This document shows positions 1,482-63,766 of a stretch of 64,000 bases of DNA, one piece after another. Source of the DNA: Rubripirellula obstinata. GTDB lineage: Bacteria; Planctomycetota; Planctomycetia; Pirellulales; Pirellulaceae. The stretch's first letter is position 1, and the number at the start of each line of letters is the position of its first letter. The notes beneath the pieces are model-generated. The model was not told the origin of the DNA and searched no databases. It saw only the letters and a program-made list of their open reading frames with translations. Position numbers and translations under genes: made by a program. The DNA lies in assembly GCF_001642955.1 (NCBI RefSeq), contig NZ_LWSK01000003.1, positions 62,001-126,000 of the forward strand, in the 5' to 3' direction.

Positions 1482-2483
1482 TTATTTGGCGAGCACCGGT
1501 GCCGGACGACCACTCGATTCCTGGTCACCGTAGAAATCATCGGGAGTCAAATCGGGAACATCGCCGCGTGTGACCGCTTCCCAACTGCACTCATCCATTG
1601 CGGGCTGAAAACCTTCGGCGGCCGATTGGAAGGTGGCTACTCGCGCGAGCATCGCACCGTAAATCACTTTTGAAACAACGTCGCAGAACGTGAAGATGAA
1701 TTGACGACTCACAGCACCACCGGCGTTGAACGCAAAGGCAGGCATCGCGATCGCGATTCCGTAGGCGGTCCAGGATCCAACGAAGAGCCACCAAATTCCT
1801 CGCATCACATTTCGAGCTCTGGCATGCATGTGATCGGTTCGGTCGAATACGTCTTTTTTCACCGAGTAAAGGATGTAGGCGAAAGCGACCCAACCGAGCA
1901 GATAAAAGGTCCAAAAGTAGAATCGCGAACTCGGATCGCCGAGGGTTGGGTGGAAACCACCCTCAAAAAACTGCGCGGTGTAACTAAAGTAAATCATCGC
2001 CAAGCCGCCAACGACGAACTTTGCGGCCGACCGGAAAAAGGTCACCCCCGCAACTCCGATCACGGCTAGTAGTTGCACTTGCAACATTGGGACGTCAATC
2101 GTCCAGTTCATGTAGCGGAAGCCGTTGCTAAACGTAGCGCGTGAAAGATTGCTTTGATCCTCGGGAATAGCCCCGGCCAAACCAATGATCCCATCCTCCA
2201 TATTGGCATTCACGTATCCGCCTTGGCCTTCACCCAACACATTAGGAACGTAGGTAAATGCGTTGGTCCAACTTTCATACTGCGTCCACAAAATCAGCGC
2301 GGCGGAAACCATAACGACGCTGCCCAGGTAGCTAGTCGTTCGATACTTCGGCTTGGTGGAACTGACCGTGTATGCGAAGTAGATCAACCCAGCAACCATC
2401 GCTCCCAGCCCGAAAACGAGTACGTGAGAAATCAGTTGGAACTGGTAGTCCGTGTAAACGAGATAGTTCTCCATATTGGACAT
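1482..2483 (-). CDS. Microbial rhodopsin, NDQ type: candidate light-driven sodium pump
   Basis: A seven-helix rhodopsin of 333 residues. The retinal lysine is K272 in helix G within DVVSKVIYG, with D268 four residues before it. Helix C reads RYMNWTIDVPMLQVQ: N126, D130 and Q137 stand where bacteriorhodopsin has D85, T89 and D96. This N-D-Q triad defines sodium-pumping rhodopsins such as Krokinobacter KR2, and stretches near residues 13-20, 56-61, 123-134 and 259-276 resemble KR2. L134, at the spectral tuning position, suggests green absorption. The loop before helix C (about 78-120) is longer than I recall in KR2, and the tail after about 285 is acidic. The start at 2483 is chosen because AAGAAGG lies 8 bases upstream; 33 further in-frame codons extend upstream without similarity. 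The blh gene follows after 11 bases. Ion specificity is inferred from the motif, not shown. Confidence 0.9.
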   Translation of the reverse strand: MSNMENYLVYTDYQFQLISHVLVFGLGAMVAGLIYFAYTVSSTKPKYRTTSYLGSVVMVSAALILWTQYESWTNAFTYVPNVLGEGQGGYVNANMEDGIIGLAGAIPEDQSNLSRATFSNGFRYMNWTIDVPMLQVQLLAVIGVAGVTFFRSAAKFVVGGLAMIYFSYTAQFFEGGFHPTLGDPSSRFYFWTFYLLGWVAFAYILYSVKKDVFDRTDHMHARARNVMRGIWWLFVGSWTAYGIAIAMPAFAFNAGGAVSRQFIFTFCDVVSKVIYGAMLARVATFQSAAEGFQPAMDECSWEAVTRGDVPDLTPDDFYGDQESSGRPAPVLAK

Positions 2484-2920: not shown

Positions 2921-3277
2921 GTGTTATCGGTCACGGCCAAGGAATGCAGTGTGGCTGTCGAAGACTACCGAGGGTTTCGCAGTCCTGAGGGCGGACGTGA
3001 TATTTCGGGCTACCTATGCCGTAAGCACACGACCGCTACGCTGTCAGAACTGTCCCAGCGATTCGGTCTAGGTGATCCCGATAGTTCTTCGGATATGGTA
3101 GAGCGAGCAAGAAAGTTCGTGACCGCCAACGCGGACGCCTACCAAAAGAGTGAAGCAAATCGAAGACCAACTTGGACTCAAACCCGAAAACCAAACCTGC
3201 CCTCACTCGAAGCGTTACCATTCAAACGAAAAATTCTGATCCATGAAAAAACGGGCATCGAACCATTCGAACGTTGA
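2921..3277 (+). pseudogene. Remnant of a REP-associated (Y1) transposase, C-terminal HTH part only
   Basis: The 118-codon frame opens with GTG. Residues of roughly 10-65 (GGRDISGYLCRKHT, then ATLSELSQRFGLGDPDS) resemble the DnaA-like helix-turn-helix tail found on planctomycete transposases of the IS200/RAYT type. The catalytic Y1 domain, with its HUH motif and tyrosine, is absent: nothing in any frame upstream to 2484 resembles it. I therefore read this as a decayed copy. Its end overlaps the next gene by 35 bases, in another frame. It could alternatively be a stand-alone small DNA-binding protein; the GTG start has no clear ribosome site, which argues against that. Confidence 0.5.
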
Positions 3278-3848
3278 TTGGCAATGGTCGCGACAAAGTC
3301 GGAAGTATCTCTGGAATGGGTTTGTGCGGATTCCATTCTTGGTGAATGTTGTCATCAACGCATCATTGCCTTGGGTGTTATTTAGACAGCGTGACAGGCT
3401 GCCGGTTTGGGGTGGCCCGGAAAGCTTGCATGGCGAGATGATCATCACGGCGATATTGTTGCCATTGTTGACGGCATGGATTTGCGGGAGAACTTTGCGT
3501 CGTCAGACTTTGGGTGAAGCCCACGCGATCCCGTTGCCAACGTTCAGAGTTGCCGATGAACCGATCGCGACAACGATGTCGAGCTTGCGCGTCGGGTTTT
3601 GGCAGGCAATGGAACGAGTCACCGGTGAAGGATCCTGGGTAGGTGGAGTCTTGTTTACGCTCGTCTGCGGGCCACTGATCTATGCGACGGGTTGGCTGGT
3701 CGTAGTCGTCTATCCGGGACCTGCCATTTCGATTGGCCAACTGTCACTGGTGAAGGCGGTTTTTGCAGGATTCCATGGTTGTTGGGTCACGCCTCTGTAT
3801 GCAATGTCCGTGTTGGTAAACACTGCCAACCGACGCCGCGACGACTGA
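3243..3848 (+). CDS. Unknown membrane protein (201 aa)
   Basis: I do not recognise the family. The protein is predicted to sit in the membrane, with hydrophobic stretches near residues 32-48, 66-84, 135-158 and 168-190, joined by basic loops; the N-terminus is cytoplasmic-looking (MKKRASNH). There is no signal peptide, lipobox or catalytic motif. It starts inside the end of the transposase remnant and is followed by 63 bases before the convergent Rieske gene, so it appears to be monocistronic. The hydrophobic pattern and intact 201-codon frame support a real gene. Confidence 0.6.
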   Translation: MKKRASNHSNVDWQWSRQSRKYLWNGFVRIPFLVNVVINASLPWVLFRQRDRLPVWGGPESLHGEMIITAILLPLLTAWICGRTLRRQTLGEAHAIPLPTFRVADEPIATTMSSLRVGFWQAMERVTGEGSWVGGVLFTLVCGPLIYATGWLVVVVYPGPAISIGQLSLVKAVFAGFHGCWVTPLYAMSVLVNTANRRRDD

Positions 3849-3911: not shown

Positions 3912-5123
3912 TTACGAGGTTTGACTCGCTGCCGAGCCCGCATCCGATTCGTTGGCTTGATCATTATCGGTGCTCCGCTTGGCCTCGATGCCGGCTTCGA
4001 TTTGGGCTTGGTCTTTTTTAGGCATGCCGATTCCCGTGGTTTCCAGCAACCATTTTTGGAACTGCCAAATCCTTTCTTCGCGAACTCCTATGACGCCGGG
4101 TTGATTGCTCCCCTGGATACCCAATTGCTGGGCTTCGTAGAGAACTCGGTCTTCGTTAAAGATTTGGCGCACTGACTTTCGAGCCATGCGCCAAGCCACG
4201 TACCTGACGATCGATCGAAGCGGTCCGTTTCGAGTTCCGTGCAACGCAAACATCCGTATTTTCACTCGAACGGTTGTCGGTGAAGTTGGAACATGGACAG
4301 ACACGTAGTTGATTGTGTCGGTCATTACCACAATGAGGCTCGGATGAAAGTGATAATGGCGGTACACCTCCTTGGGCTCACCGCCCAAGAATCGACTGGT
4401 CTTGAATTGCTCTTTGGCCCATGGAAATTTCTCCGCGTACTCCAAACGCGTTTGAGAGTCTTCCAGGTGATGAATCGAGTGGAGTTCCAATGGCAATTCC
4501 CCGTCGAACCAATCCGGGTGGACTTCGGCAATGTGGTAGGAATCCAGCGTGTTTTCGACCGGGACTTTCCAATTGCTGTTCGCATCGAATTCCCATTCTT
4601 CGGCCATTCGCCACATGGGTGCTTTGAAGTTGGCCTCGATCTCATCCCATTTCTCGCCAATGAAGTCCTTCAAAGTCTCAGGACCGTTCGACAGGTTGAT
4701 GAAAATCAAGTCACCACACATCTCCATTCGGATCGGTTGGAGATGAGAGTTCTCTCGGTCCCAAGGACGAAAGCAGTGAGCTTCGGGTATACGTCCGGTG
4801 CTTCCGTCCGAATTAAATTCCCACCCATGATACTGGCATTTGAACTTCTCGCTGTTGCCATTGGGTTCACATGTTAACTGCGAGTGCCGATGAGGGCATA
4901 CATTCACAAATGCTTTAATCTCGTTTCCAAAATTACGCAGAATCACCGGAGTTCCTGCATGATTGACAGTAACGAAATCGCCCTTCTTGCTGATTTCCTG
5001 CTTGGTGCAGGCCAACTGCCAAGACGTGCGAAAAAGCGTTTCAAGCTCTAGCTGATAGTGGTCTGGATCGCGATAATGCTCGGGACGCAACAGGTGACGT
5101 AAACGGCTTTCGTGCACAAACAT
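3912..5123 (-). CDS. Rieske non-haem iron ring-hydroxylating oxygenase, alpha subunit type
   Basis: A 403-residue oxygenase of the aromatic-ring-hydroxylating family. The Rieske [2Fe-2S] site is C76-x-H78 (CPHRH) with C96-x2-H99 (CQYHGW). The catalytic domain carries NTLDSYHIAEVH, giving D194 as the electron bridge and H197 and H202 as iron ligands; D325 in NEDRVLYEAQ is a good candidate for the third ligand. The family uses NAD(P)H-derived electrons and oxygen to hydroxylate or demethylate ring or quaternary-amine substrates. No reductase, ferredoxin or beta subunit lies nearby, so the substrate cannot be inferred. The last 40 residues are hydrophilic (Asp/Glu/Ala/Gln-rich) and look unstructured. 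The start at 5123 places the first helix correctly relative to the Rieske domain. Confidence 0.9.
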   Translation of the reverse strand: MFVHESRLRHLLRPEHYRDPDHYQLELETLFRTSWQLACTKQEISKKGDFVTVNHAGTPVILRNFGNEIKAFVNVCPHRHSQLTCEPNGNSEKFKCQYHGWEFNSDGSTGRIPEAHCFRPWDRENSHLQPIRMEMCGDLIFINLSNGPETLKDFIGEKWDEIEANFKAPMWRMAEEWEFDANSNWKVPVENTLDSYHIAEVHPDWFDGELPLELHSIHHLEDSQTRLEYAEKFPWAKEQFKTSRFLGGEPKEVYRHYHFHPSLIVVMTDTINYVSVHVPTSPTTVRVKIRMFALHGTRNGPLRSIVRYVAWRMARKSVRQIFNEDRVLYEAQQLGIQGSNQPGVIGVREERIWQFQKWLLETTGIGMPKKDQAQIEAGIEAKRSTDNDQANESDAGSAASQTS

Positions 5124-5434: not shown

Positions 5435-6052
5435 ATGGCATCCAGCGAAGCCACGACGATCGACGTCGAAGGTCAAATCATCGACCTGAAAAATCGCAAT
5501 TTGGCGGCTTTTCTGTCTTGGTTGGTGCCCGGTTTGGGGCACATGTACCAAGGACGAATGACCAAGGGCTGCATTTTCTTGGTCTGTATTCTGTCCGCTT
5601 GGATCCTCGGTTTTGCACTCGGTGGCGGGCATGTTGTCTATGCATCGTGGGTTCCAGGTGACCGGCGGTGGCATTATTTTTTGCAAGCAGGCGTTGGAGC
5701 ACTTGCGATGCCAGCGCTGGTGCAAGGCAATCGAATGCGGAAGGCGACCGATCCTGATACCGGCTACACGGCCAGATCCTACACGCCGCTTTGGGGTGGA
5801 TTCATGGCACCGCCGTACCGACGAGTGCTAGAAAGCGAAGCCGATGAAGTGTCCGCTTGGTACGCTCGCCGAGGGGCCGGTTACGAAATGGGTACCTGGT
5901 ACACCGTGATCGCCGGACTGCTAAACATTCTTGTGATCTACGACGCATTTGGCGGCCCGTTGGCGGTACCGATCAGCGGCCGCAGAAAAGACGAAACGCC
6001 CGATCTGGAACATTCTGAGCCAGAACATTCTGCCCCAGAACAAGGCGATTAA
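5435..6052 (+). CDS. DUF6677-like (TM2-related) membrane protein
   Basis: A 205-residue membrane protein. The segment NLAAFLSWLVPGLGHMYQGR (residues 22-41) and the following hydrophobic helix are the Pro-Gly-Leu-Gly-x-x-Tyr-x-Gly pattern of TM2-type domains, and the overall form matches planctomycete proteins I associate with DUF6677. Further hydrophobic segments lie near residues 46-66, 80-97 and 150-172; the C-terminus is acidic and repetitive (EHSEPEHSAPEQ). Function is unknown. It is followed after 63 bases by a small membrane protein and then trkA, all on the same strand, and this grouping suggests an operon. Confidence 0.7.
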   Translation: MASSEATTIDVEGQIIDLKNRNLAAFLSWLVPGLGHMYQGRMTKGCIFLVCILSAWILGFALGGGHVVYASWVPGDRRWHYFLQAGVGALAMPALVQGNRMRKATDPDTGYTARSYTPLWGGFMAPPYRRVLESEADEVSAWYARRGAGYEMGTWYTVIAGLLNILVIYDAFGGPLAVPISGRRKDETPDLEHSEPEHSAPEQGD

Positions 6053-6317: not shown

Positions 6318-7658
6318 ATGCGAGTACTCACACTAGGTGCCGGAACCGTCGGACGCTGGGTCGCCGACATGCTTTGCCGGCGAGGCCACAGCGTTACCGT
6401 CGTTGACCACGACCCCGAAAATGTTCGACGAATCAACAGCGAACTCGATGTGCGCGCGATCGTTGGCAGCGCTTCCCGCAGCACCGTGCTGTTCCAAGCC
6501 GGCGTGTGTTCGGCCGATATGTGTTTGGCGGTCACCGGCGACGATGAAGTCAACATTGTTGGTGCCAGCATGGCCAAGGCGCTTGGTGCACGGCGCAGCA
6601 TCGCACGCGTGTACGCGCCAGCGTTTCGCGATCTGAGTACGTTCGATTATCAGAAACACTTCAACATCGACAGCCTGCTTAGTTTGGAACAACTCTCGGC
6701 ATTCGAGCTGGCTCGATCGATCCGTGATCCCGACGCGATTCCGCTAGAACACTTTGCTCGCGGGCAGCTAGAAGTCTACGAGATGGATGTCGATACCAAG
6801 TCGCCTGCGGCTGGCCGTAAATTACGAGACTTAAAGATCCCCGGTTCCATCCGTGTTGGTTCGATTGCTCGCGACGGCCGCATGTGGATCGCTAGCGGTG
6901 AAGATGAATTGCATGTCGGCGATCGCATCAGTTTGATCGGAAGCCCCGAATCGGTCGCCAAGGTGCGCAGCATGTTTTCTGAACAGCGCAAGAGCCGGAA
7001 GCAGTCGCGTGTGATGATTGCTGGTGGTGGCGAAACAGGTTACCACTTGGCCGACTCGCTCGCCCGCCGCGACTACCGCGTCGTGATGCTGGAACGCGAC
7101 GTTGATCGATGCGAACATCTGGCCAAGCTGTTACCCGACGTCACGGTGGTTCACGCCAACGCCAACCGCCGCGTGGTGTTAGAAGACGAAGGTGCCGGCA
7201 ATGTTGATTTCTTTGTCGCCTGCACCGGGTCGGACGAAAGCAACATCATGGCCGGCGTCGAGGCTCGCGAATTGGGTTCGGCCAGAGTGATGTGTGTCGT
7301 CGGACGGCCCGATTACGCCAACGTGGTCGGAAAGCTAGGGATCGACTTGGCCGTCAGTGAACGAGACGTGGCGGCTCGTCAGATCCTGGGTTATCTGAAC
7401 GAAGGCGCGATCATCAGTCGGAACCAATTGCCCAACGGAACGATTGGCGTTTATGAATTGGAAATCAACGAAGGTAGCCCGATCACCCAAGGTTCGCTGG
7501 CGGAATTGCCGTTAGCGGGACGTTGTTTGATTGGGGCGATTTATCGCGATGGCTTCGTCCGCGTCCCGACCGCCGATGATAAATTACAGGCCGGTGATGT
7601 GGTGGTCGCGTTGATCGATAGCGCGTCGCCCGATGACCCGTTGCCGCTGTTCCATTAG
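6318..7658 (+). CDS. trkA: TrkA-type potassium uptake regulatory protein
   Basis: A 446-residue cytoplasmic regulator with the family's duplicated plan: RCK-N (about 1-120), RCK-C (about 140-222), RCK-N (about 230-350) and RCK-C (about 365-440). The first nucleotide-binding loop is GAGTVGRWVA near residues 7-16, and VVDHD marks the acidic end of strand two; the second is IAGGGETGYHLA near 233-244, with MLERD following. TrkA binds NAD(H) or adenine nucleotides and gates a TrkH/TrkG potassium channel. No trkH gene is in the window, so the partner is encoded elsewhere. It is the last gene of a three-gene group and ends just before a strong inverted repeat. Confidence 0.93.
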   Translation: MRVLTLGAGTVGRWVADMLCRRGHSVTVVDHDPENVRRINSELDVRAIVGSASRSTVLFQAGVCSADMCLAVTGDDEVNIVGASMAKALGARRSIARVYAPAFRDLSTFDYQKHFNIDSLLSLEQLSAFELARSIRDPDAIPLEHFARGQLEVYEMDVDTKSPAAGRKLRDLKIPGSIRVGSIARDGRMWIASGEDELHVGDRISLIGSPESVAKVRSMFSEQRKSRKQSRVMIAGGGETGYHLADSLARRDYRVVMLERDVDRCEHLAKLLPDVTVVHANANRRVVLEDEGAGNVDFFVACTGSDESNIMAGVEARELGSARVMCVVGRPDYANVVGKLGIDLAVSERDVAARQILGYLNEGAIISRNQLPNGTIGVYELEINEGSPITQGSLAELPLAGRCLIGAIYRDGFVRVPTADDKLQAGDVVVALIDSASPDDPLPLFH

Positions 7659-59593: not shown

Positions 59594-59814
59594 CGTAGCT
59601 GGGCCCGTCAGGGTTCAGTCCATCAGGAACTGCACCCAACGCCGTGAAGGTTTCTAAACTGTTAAACCGCGTGGGCATCGCCCCGCGCGTCGTGCGGTCC
59701 CGAACGCGCGGGCCGATGCCCACGCGGCTAAACGAACAAACTCGTGTTTTCCGGGACCAAAACTCTTCACGGTGTTGAGCTGTACCCGACTGAACCCTGG
59801 CGGGCCCAGCTACG
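59594..59814. repeat. Nested repeat: GTGGGCATCGCC element inside a CGTAGCTG palindrome
   Basis: The outer arms (59594-59619 CGTAGCTGGGCCCGTCAGGG..., and 59789-59814 ending CCAGCTACG) are the two halves of the 26-base palindrome family seen at 16718, 25625 and 31121, here forced 169 bases apart. Between them, 59635-59779, is a full copy of the MITE-like element of 245-389, with its own CAACGCCGTGAAGG start and CTTCACGGTGTTG end. The rest of the 535-base gap (59434-59968) has the repeat at 59463 and nothing else recognisable. Confidence 0.9.
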
Positions 59815-63587: not shown

Positions 63588-63766
63588 CCCAACGCCGTAA
63601 AGGGTTTAACCGCGTGGGCATCGCCCCGCGCGTCGTGCGGCCCTCAGCCCGCGGGGCAATGCCCAACGCCGTGAAGGATTTCTAAATCGTTTAACCGCGT
63701 GGGCATCGCCCCGCGCGTCCACCCAGAACGAAACGCGCGGGGCGATGCCCGCGCGGCTAAACAAAA
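63588..63766. repeat. Palindromic MITE-like repeat, two overlapping copies
   Basis: Two partial copies of the GTGGGCATCGCC element lie head to tail: 63588-63660 starts CCCAACGCCGTAAAGGGTTT and 63661-63766 starts with CCCAACGCCGTGAAGGATTT and ends near CGGCTAAAC. The remainder of the 524-base terminal stretch (63477-64000) shows no gene; see the hairpin at 63823. Confidence 0.85.

Follow-up and report, generated by a model that had tools for sequence, protein, structure and literature searches.

The rhodopsin locus

The window, by which we mean the whole stretch of 64,000 nucleotides analyzed here (bases 62001-126000 of contig C221, itself 146,689 bases long), comes from a Rubripirellula obstinata genome assembled into 307 contigs that total 6,578,705 bases, with 99.99% completeness and 2.07% contamination. 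It carries a rhodopsin gene followed directly by a gene for the enzyme that makes retinal (Table 1). An earlier note on this DNA had given limits for the rhodopsin gene that are exact at both the start and the stop codon. It had also assigned the DNA to a planctomycete, which fits the presence in the window of a DUF1559 gene (PF07596, 214 bits), a family that we take to be a hallmark of planctomycetes.

Bac_rhodopsin is the sole Pfam family matched by the rhodopsin product (E = 2.3e-30; 106 bits, where the cut-off is 24.6), and a search of PDB sequences returned 46 distinct sequences at E <= 0.001, the best being the sodium pump ErNaR (8qle, E 2.7e-46), so the similarity did not arise by chance. 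The neighboring gene, which the earlier note had paired with the rhodopsin as its own retinal enzyme, is recognized as blh by both PF15461 (87.8 bits) and TIGR03753 (99.4 bits, above the cut-off of 95.25). It starts 11 bases past the rhodopsin stop on the same strand, and so short a gap makes a single transcript probable. A structured leader was rejected: the folding predicted for the 97 bases upstream of the rhodopsin ATG is no stronger than that of shuffled sequences (z -0.25).

Table 1. Features of the rhodopsin locus and of a second rhodopsin operon in the same genome (positions are those of the window unless another locus is named)
Feature	Position	Strand	Description
Inverted-repeat cluster	228-343	none	arms of 30 and 29 nt; a short way downstream of blh
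Blh/Brp-type beta-carotene 15,15'-dioxygenase gene (blh)	448-1470	minus	340 aa, GTG start; product makes retinal
NDQ-type rhodopsin gene	1482-2483	minus	ATG 2483-2481, stop ends at 1482; 333 aa
B-C segment of the rhodopsin	2133-2267	minus	codons 73-117, between W72 and F118; 45 residues
Ribosome-binding-like site AAGAAGG	2492-2498	minus	8 nt before the rhodopsin ATG; read directly
Inverted repeat	2780-2849	none	arms 29 nt, 97% complementary, loop 12 nt; upstream of the rhodopsin gene
Named rhodopsin residues			helix C N126, D130, Q137; also R123, H20, S60, Q171, E174, R260, D268, S271, K272
Rhodopsin substitutions of note			I64 (KR2 L74), Y194 (KR2 G171), G242 (KR2 Pro219)
Second rhodopsin operon	L075 5529-13631 (contig C290)		DTE motif, antenna glycine kept; blh, CrtY, CrtI and CrtE-/CrtB-like genes in one direction

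Motif and key residues

The earlier note had identified N126, D130 and Q137 as an N-D-Q motif, together with D268 and the retinal lysine K272. All five are numbered correctly and align with KR2 N112, D116, Q123, D251 and K255, and they also line up with ErNaR in the PDB alignment. We inspected 33 KR2 positions in a 104-row alignment. In the window protein, 22 of these are kept (H30, S70, Q78, W82, F104, N106, R109, Y110, N112, W113, D116, V117, L120, Q123, Q157, E160, W215, Y218, R243, D251, S254 and K255) and 11 are changed (Y25 to F15, N61 to S51, S64 to G54, F72 to A62, L74 to I64, D102 to A116, Y108 to F122, P219 to G242, Y222 to I245, Y247 to F264 and G263 to A280).

Several of the changed sites are variable: among the 68 rows with Asn at KR2 position 112, most of which came from one scan requiring the pattern [MV]NW and which are mutually related, the KR2 residue occurs in 4 at N61, in 12 at D102 and in 19 at G263. 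Gly at KR2 S64 is found only in the window protein and two planctomycete relatives (L172 and L173, below), and a residue other than Tyr at 222 in 4 of the 68. The B-C segment (the KR2 W82-F104 interval) is the longest among these rows (median 17, next-longest 32), at more than twice the 21 residues of KR2.

An AlphaFold2 monomer model built from 42 aligned rows had a pLDDT of 90 and a pTM of 0.86; confidence dropped only across the B-C insert (block means of 77, 53 and 73 across residues 91-120) and the last 20-30 residues. By E-value, a Foldseek search placed ErNaR first, then NM-R3, with KR2 later (TM-scores by target 0.93, 0.95 and 0.88), and when hits are ranked on TM-score, the chloride pump NM-R3 (0.95-0.96) comes closer to the model than ErNaR. 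The fold was thus discarded as a means of telling Na+ from Cl- pumps, as both classes score alike.

Among characterized proteins, ErNaR (Erythrobacter, PDB 8qle/9tbd; NDQ Subgroup 2) shares with the window protein the NDQ motif, both Asp counterions, the release-side Arg and Glu, and the fold, and it too departs from KR2 at N61 and D102. It differs in overall sequence (36.7% identity), in having Glu64 where the window protein has Ile, in lacking the Gly for Pro219 and the Tyr for the WG glycine, and in its B-C segment of only 20 residues. KR2 (Krokinobacter/Dokdonia; NDQ Subgroup 1) is 35.9% identical and shares the motif, H30, S70, Q78, Q157, E160, R243 and S254, with Ile in the window protein at Leu74; it differs at N61, S64, D102, P219, Y222 and G263 (S, G, A, G, I and A in the window protein), so that the D102 Na+ ligand is missing, and at G171, which is replaced by Tyr.

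Phylogeny and class membership

Our first tree used 50 of 77 rows, 27 having been dropped to thin similar rows; the second used 48 rows, with L172 and L173 added and four long outgroup rows also removed. In both, the window protein lies in the NaR/ClR clade, which a branch with 100/100 support separates from the DTE proton pumps; the eight NTQ chloride-pump rows form a 100/100 clade that excludes it. The earlier note had held that a position inside the proton or chloride pumps would count against its reading; the protein falls inside neither sampled group. Its place within the clade is less settled: its end branch measures 1.25-1.29 changes per column, the tree program warns of long branches meeting, and AU tests rejected neither its joining to the chloride pumps (p-AU 0.123) nor its joining to the KR2 group (p-AU 0.12). 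The row with the highest pairwise identity to the window protein is a Spirosoma NDQ protein, at 44.9%.

In the first tree, the window protein groups with the planctomycete proteins L080, L033 and L041 at 100/94. This grouping was lost once L172 and L173 were added: the six rows lacking Pro219 come together only at 75/80, and the four-row planctomycete clade has a p-AU of 0.454. We therefore claim no planctomycete clade.

PMC11006869 defines NDQ Subgroup 1 by Leu or Ile at KR2 L74 and describes the D102 interprotomer Na+ site as thought to be present throughout that subgroup. The window protein has the Ile (I64), and A116 replaces D102, so we do not file it under Subgroup 1; having Ile rather than an ErNaR-type Glu64, it does not belong to Subgroup 2 by the published criterion either. 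Its NDQ residues set it apart from the DTE/DTD proton pumps, and D130 stands where the NTQ chloride pumps have Thr. As judged from these residues and trees, it is most likely a distant, divergent member of the NDQ (NaR) family.

Relatives in other planctomycetes

In the organism's own family, a PF01036 search found matches in 32 of 241 genomes; helix-C motifs could be assigned at 31 loci (of 35 places listed), giving 29 DTE, one DTK and one NDQ, the last being the window's. With the window protein as query, 29 of the 241 genomes match, and the matches listed outside its own gene are 25-30% identical. A sample of the phylum gave matches in 9 of 392 genomes, with KR2-like proteins in three (its own, G356 and G589), and the family of G589 gave one in 51. 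As far as these searches reach, the organism is an unusual carrier, as the earlier note had said. Searches of two classes used alignment A2 with a limit of 1e-20 and scored at most five candidates per genome, so further NDQ kin may have been missed: in the class of G589, 9 of 397 genomes match, with NDQ kin in at least three (G589, G718 and G714), and in the organism's own class 20 of 397 match, with NDQ kin only in its own genome among the candidates scored. Two rhodopsins of the same family depart from D-T-E, with D-T-K (L005, genome G050) and D-T-A (L048, genome G052).

The relatives vary in motif and setting. Genome G589 encodes two rhodopsins of the NaR/ClR kind, one with the helix-C motif N-D-S (L033, 1435-2271 minus), adjoined by a frame that looks blh-like by eye, and one with N-T-T (L041, 1237-2073 plus). 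With the motif lost in both, ion selectivity may drift among the planctomycete members, to judge by these residues. L172 (1495-2442 plus; G718) and L173 (G714) keep NDQ and carry Glu at KR2 L74, the mark of Subgroup 2, along with Leu at Pro219, Phe at the antenna glycine and Gly at S64; between E160 and 171 they have 24 and 29 residues more than KR2, and L172 is adjoined by blh (TIGR03753, 146 bits). The NDQ rhodopsin gene L080 (4001-4855, Phycisphaerales MAG PN19_bin_20) has an in-frame TGA in helix A, no blh was recognized by eye within 4 kb on each side, and it represents either a decaying gene or a sequence error.

Among the literature matches listed, none stood out as dealing with a planctomycete sodium-pump rhodopsin, though the 351-sequence list of PMC11006869 may include such members; the part of PMC13043013 consulted mentions one Na+-pumping rhodopsin in a MAG. 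The earlier note, right about the residues and the retinal enzyme, made no mention of these relatives, some with changed motifs, nor of the second (DTE) rhodopsin operon, the loss of Pro219, the filled antenna site or the long B-C segment.

A missing proline and a filled antenna glycine

In 61 of the 68 Asn-112 rows, Gly at KR2 171 accompanies Pro at 219, and one more (L122, a Rhodobacteraceae MAG) has Phe with Pro. The remaining six combine Tyr or Phe at 171 with Gly, Ala or Leu at 219: Tyr/Gly in the window protein, Tyr/Ala in L080, L033 and L041, and Phe/Leu in L172 and L173. These account for six of the seven planctomycete rows (counting the G genomes, which belong to the window's phylum, and the Phycisphaerales, which belong to Planctomycetota), as against none of 61 non-planctomycete rows lacking Pro219 and 60 of 61 keeping both residues. 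The seventh, L034 (G356), a close KR2 relative (258 bits), keeps Gly and Pro. The stretch from E160 to 171 spans 14-39 residues in all seven planctomycete rows, against 10 in KR2; among the 61 others it is 18 in 4 and 10 in 57. The 36 rows without Asn at 112 (35 DTE, one DTK) all have Pro219, while their residue at 171 differs from row to row (G 15, F 9, W 8, Y 4), so filling the glycine does not in itself require loss of the proline.

KR2 171 corresponds to xanthorhodopsin G156, as counted on the PDB sequence, and excerpts of PMC13043013 give the xanthorhodopsin-type helix-E glycine a role in the carotenoid antenna. According to the parts of PMC6491443 and PMC8514524 consulted, the helix-F proline is conserved in most microbial rhodopsins, and two NaRs without it have been identified, PoNaR (Thr) and JsNaR (Gly). 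JsNaR pumps Na+ and has its absorption at 550 nm, which the G216P mutation moves to 523 nm (PMC6491443, in excerpt); KR2 P219X mutants are red-shifted except P219R, with P219G shifted least, by 10 nm to 535 nm (PMC8514524, in excerpt). Compared by published description only, the window protein resembles PoNaR (Parvularcula) in lacking Pro219 and JsNaR (Jannaschia) in having Gly there, for which a red shift is expected. By analogy, G242 probably gives a red shift relative to KR2, perhaps a small one in view of P219G.

We suggest, as a tentative reading to which we give somewhat less than even weight, that Planctomycetota hold their own NDQ-derived pumps with a rebuilt beta-ionone pocket (P219 lost and G171 filled), which would be red-shifted, antenna-free Na+ pumps, the motif drift in G589 leading on to pumps of unknown ion. 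In the same proposal, taken jointly and held no more firmly, the change of P219 to Gly, Ala or Leu goes together with that of G171 to Tyr or Phe under Subgroup 1 and Subgroup 2 marks alike. If the lines with these two marks changed separately, this would be a coupled substitution and possibly a color switch.

A second rhodopsin and sodium genes in the genome

A xanthorhodopsin-like protein with a DTE motif is encoded on contig C290. It is only 20.9% identical to the window protein and keeps Pro219 and the antenna glycine, and it differs too in adjoining carotenoid genes, of which CrtY and CrtI score over their cut-offs and the CrtB- and CrtE-like genes below theirs. It is likewise paired with its own blh, so that the genome has two blh copies, each adjoining one of the rhodopsins. 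The gene divergent to its operon looks like a MerR/B12-type regulator and has no NCBIfam match. In the same genome, NqrA and NqrB score over their cut-offs and RnfD is also found, which makes it probable that the cell already makes use of a sodium gradient.

Function of the window rhodopsin

We consider it likely, going by its residues and relatives, that the window rhodopsin belongs to the NDQ (NaR) family and uses light to pump sodium out of the cell. The earlier note had read it this way, and the reading remains the best, because motif, counterions, retinal lysine and clade all agree; its place within the clade is less firm, as the AU test retains a joining to the chloride pumps. With a fold blind to Na+ versus Cl-, a long branch and that test result, sodium pumping is something we infer, and both the direction of pumping and the color are carried over from other proteins. 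The kind of protein is known. New are its carrier, how far it has diverged, the loss of the proline together with the filling of the antenna site, and the length of the loop.

By analogy with KR2, light would isomerize all-trans retinal on K272 and the Schiff-base proton would pass to D130; with D130 neutral and N126 moved, cytoplasmic Na+ could pass the Schiff base, be held transiently near N126 and D268, and leave to the outside by way of the E174/R260 group, and H+ would be pumped instead when Na+ is absent. Retinal would come from the adjoining blh, and its beta-carotene from the carotenoid genes on C290. With Gly in place of Pro219, absorption would lie at a longer wavelength than the 525 nm of KR2, approaching at most the 550 nm of JsNaR, and the Tyr that fills the antenna-glycine site would stand in the way of a carotenoid antenna. 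A flavobacterial sodium pump is reported to bind the carotenoid salinixanthin (PMC10026069). Along with the cell's Na+-NQR, the pump would contribute to the sodium gradient.

It is unlikely that the protein is wholly or mainly a light-driven proton pump that keeps the NDQ letters, with Na+ uptake or release weakened by the changes at N61, S64, G263 and D102 and by the long B-C segment. In the absence of Na+, NaRs do transport H+ (PMC6491443 and PMC5531490, in excerpt), and a third of the KR2 positions inspected are changed (11 of 33), but N61 and D102 are changed in the working sodium pump ErNaR as well, and a second H+ pump would be redundant in a genome that already has a DTE-type rhodopsin. 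We also think it improbable that the protein is a light sensor or is no longer under selection for pumping: the B-C segment, longest of the 68 rows, and the long end branch would suit such a role, as would the broken Phycisphaerales relative with its in-frame TGA and no blh recognized by eye nearby, yet motif, counterions and retinal lysine are intact, the frame is open, blh adjoins, and no transducer gene was recognized among the neighbors read. An inward chloride pump, like the NTQ rhodopsins nested beside the NDQ pumps, is very improbable: the fold is at least as close to NM-R3, identity is 37.9% to the NM-R3 row (an engineered mutant) against the lower values for KR2 and ErNaR, and a joining to the chloride pumps was not rejected, but D130 is Asp and not Thr at the motif-separating position (KR2 116), and the chloride-pump rows form their own fully supported clade.

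If the window rhodopsin is indeed a sodium pump, the range of light-driven sodium export extends to the planctomycetes. Since the cell also has a proton-pump-type rhodopsin and Na+-NQR genes, light could then supply each of the two gradients on its own. The lack of Pro219 would offer a natural test of the G/P color switch beyond the two exceptions described in the portions of PMC6491443 and PMC8514524 consulted, and the linked change at the antenna glycine suggests a two-residue hypothesis on the retinal ring pocket. Optogenetics has a demand for longer-wavelength pumps (PMC6491443, in excerpt). The N-D-S and N-T-T relatives in G589 would bear on how far the motif can drift before the ion changes.

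Genomic setting

The DNA around the rhodopsin operon is variable, whereas the block next to it is conserved. The gene at window position 5435 and the TrkA-like gene at 6318 have adjoining counterparts in four genus mates (71-81% and 81-83% identity), which lack the rhodopsin locus at that place: the frames of at least 150 residues compared, from 30.1 kb of C221 to window position 5435, the rhodopsin, blh and Rieske genes included, have no counterpart at 1e-15 in about 17 kb beyond the block in these four, except for one 34% match. Contamination was rejected on two grounds: the TrkA-like protein, encoded some 4 kb off on the same contig, has counterparts of 77-83% identity in 21 of 21 genus mates, and G+C stays level at 0.50-0.54 across 18 kb. 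A mobile origin was likewise set aside: broken synteny alone speaks for it, a plasmid search gave two distant matches at 22%, and a search of viral contigs gave none.

Upstream of the rhodopsin gene and on its strand lies a Rieske-type oxygenase gene (3912-5123), with an opposite-strand frame (3243-3848) in between. Only one of 21 genus mates has a relative of this oxygenase above 33% identity (52%, on a contig other than that of its TrkA gene). The 18-mer GCGGGGCGATGCCCACGC occurs on both strands at 233-335, 59669-59725 and 63612-63754, with 8 matches at up to 2 mismatches and none in 100 shuffles. Because it recurs near 59.7 and 63.7 kb, the repeat downstream of blh is a dispersed palindromic genomic repeat rather than a part of the operon.
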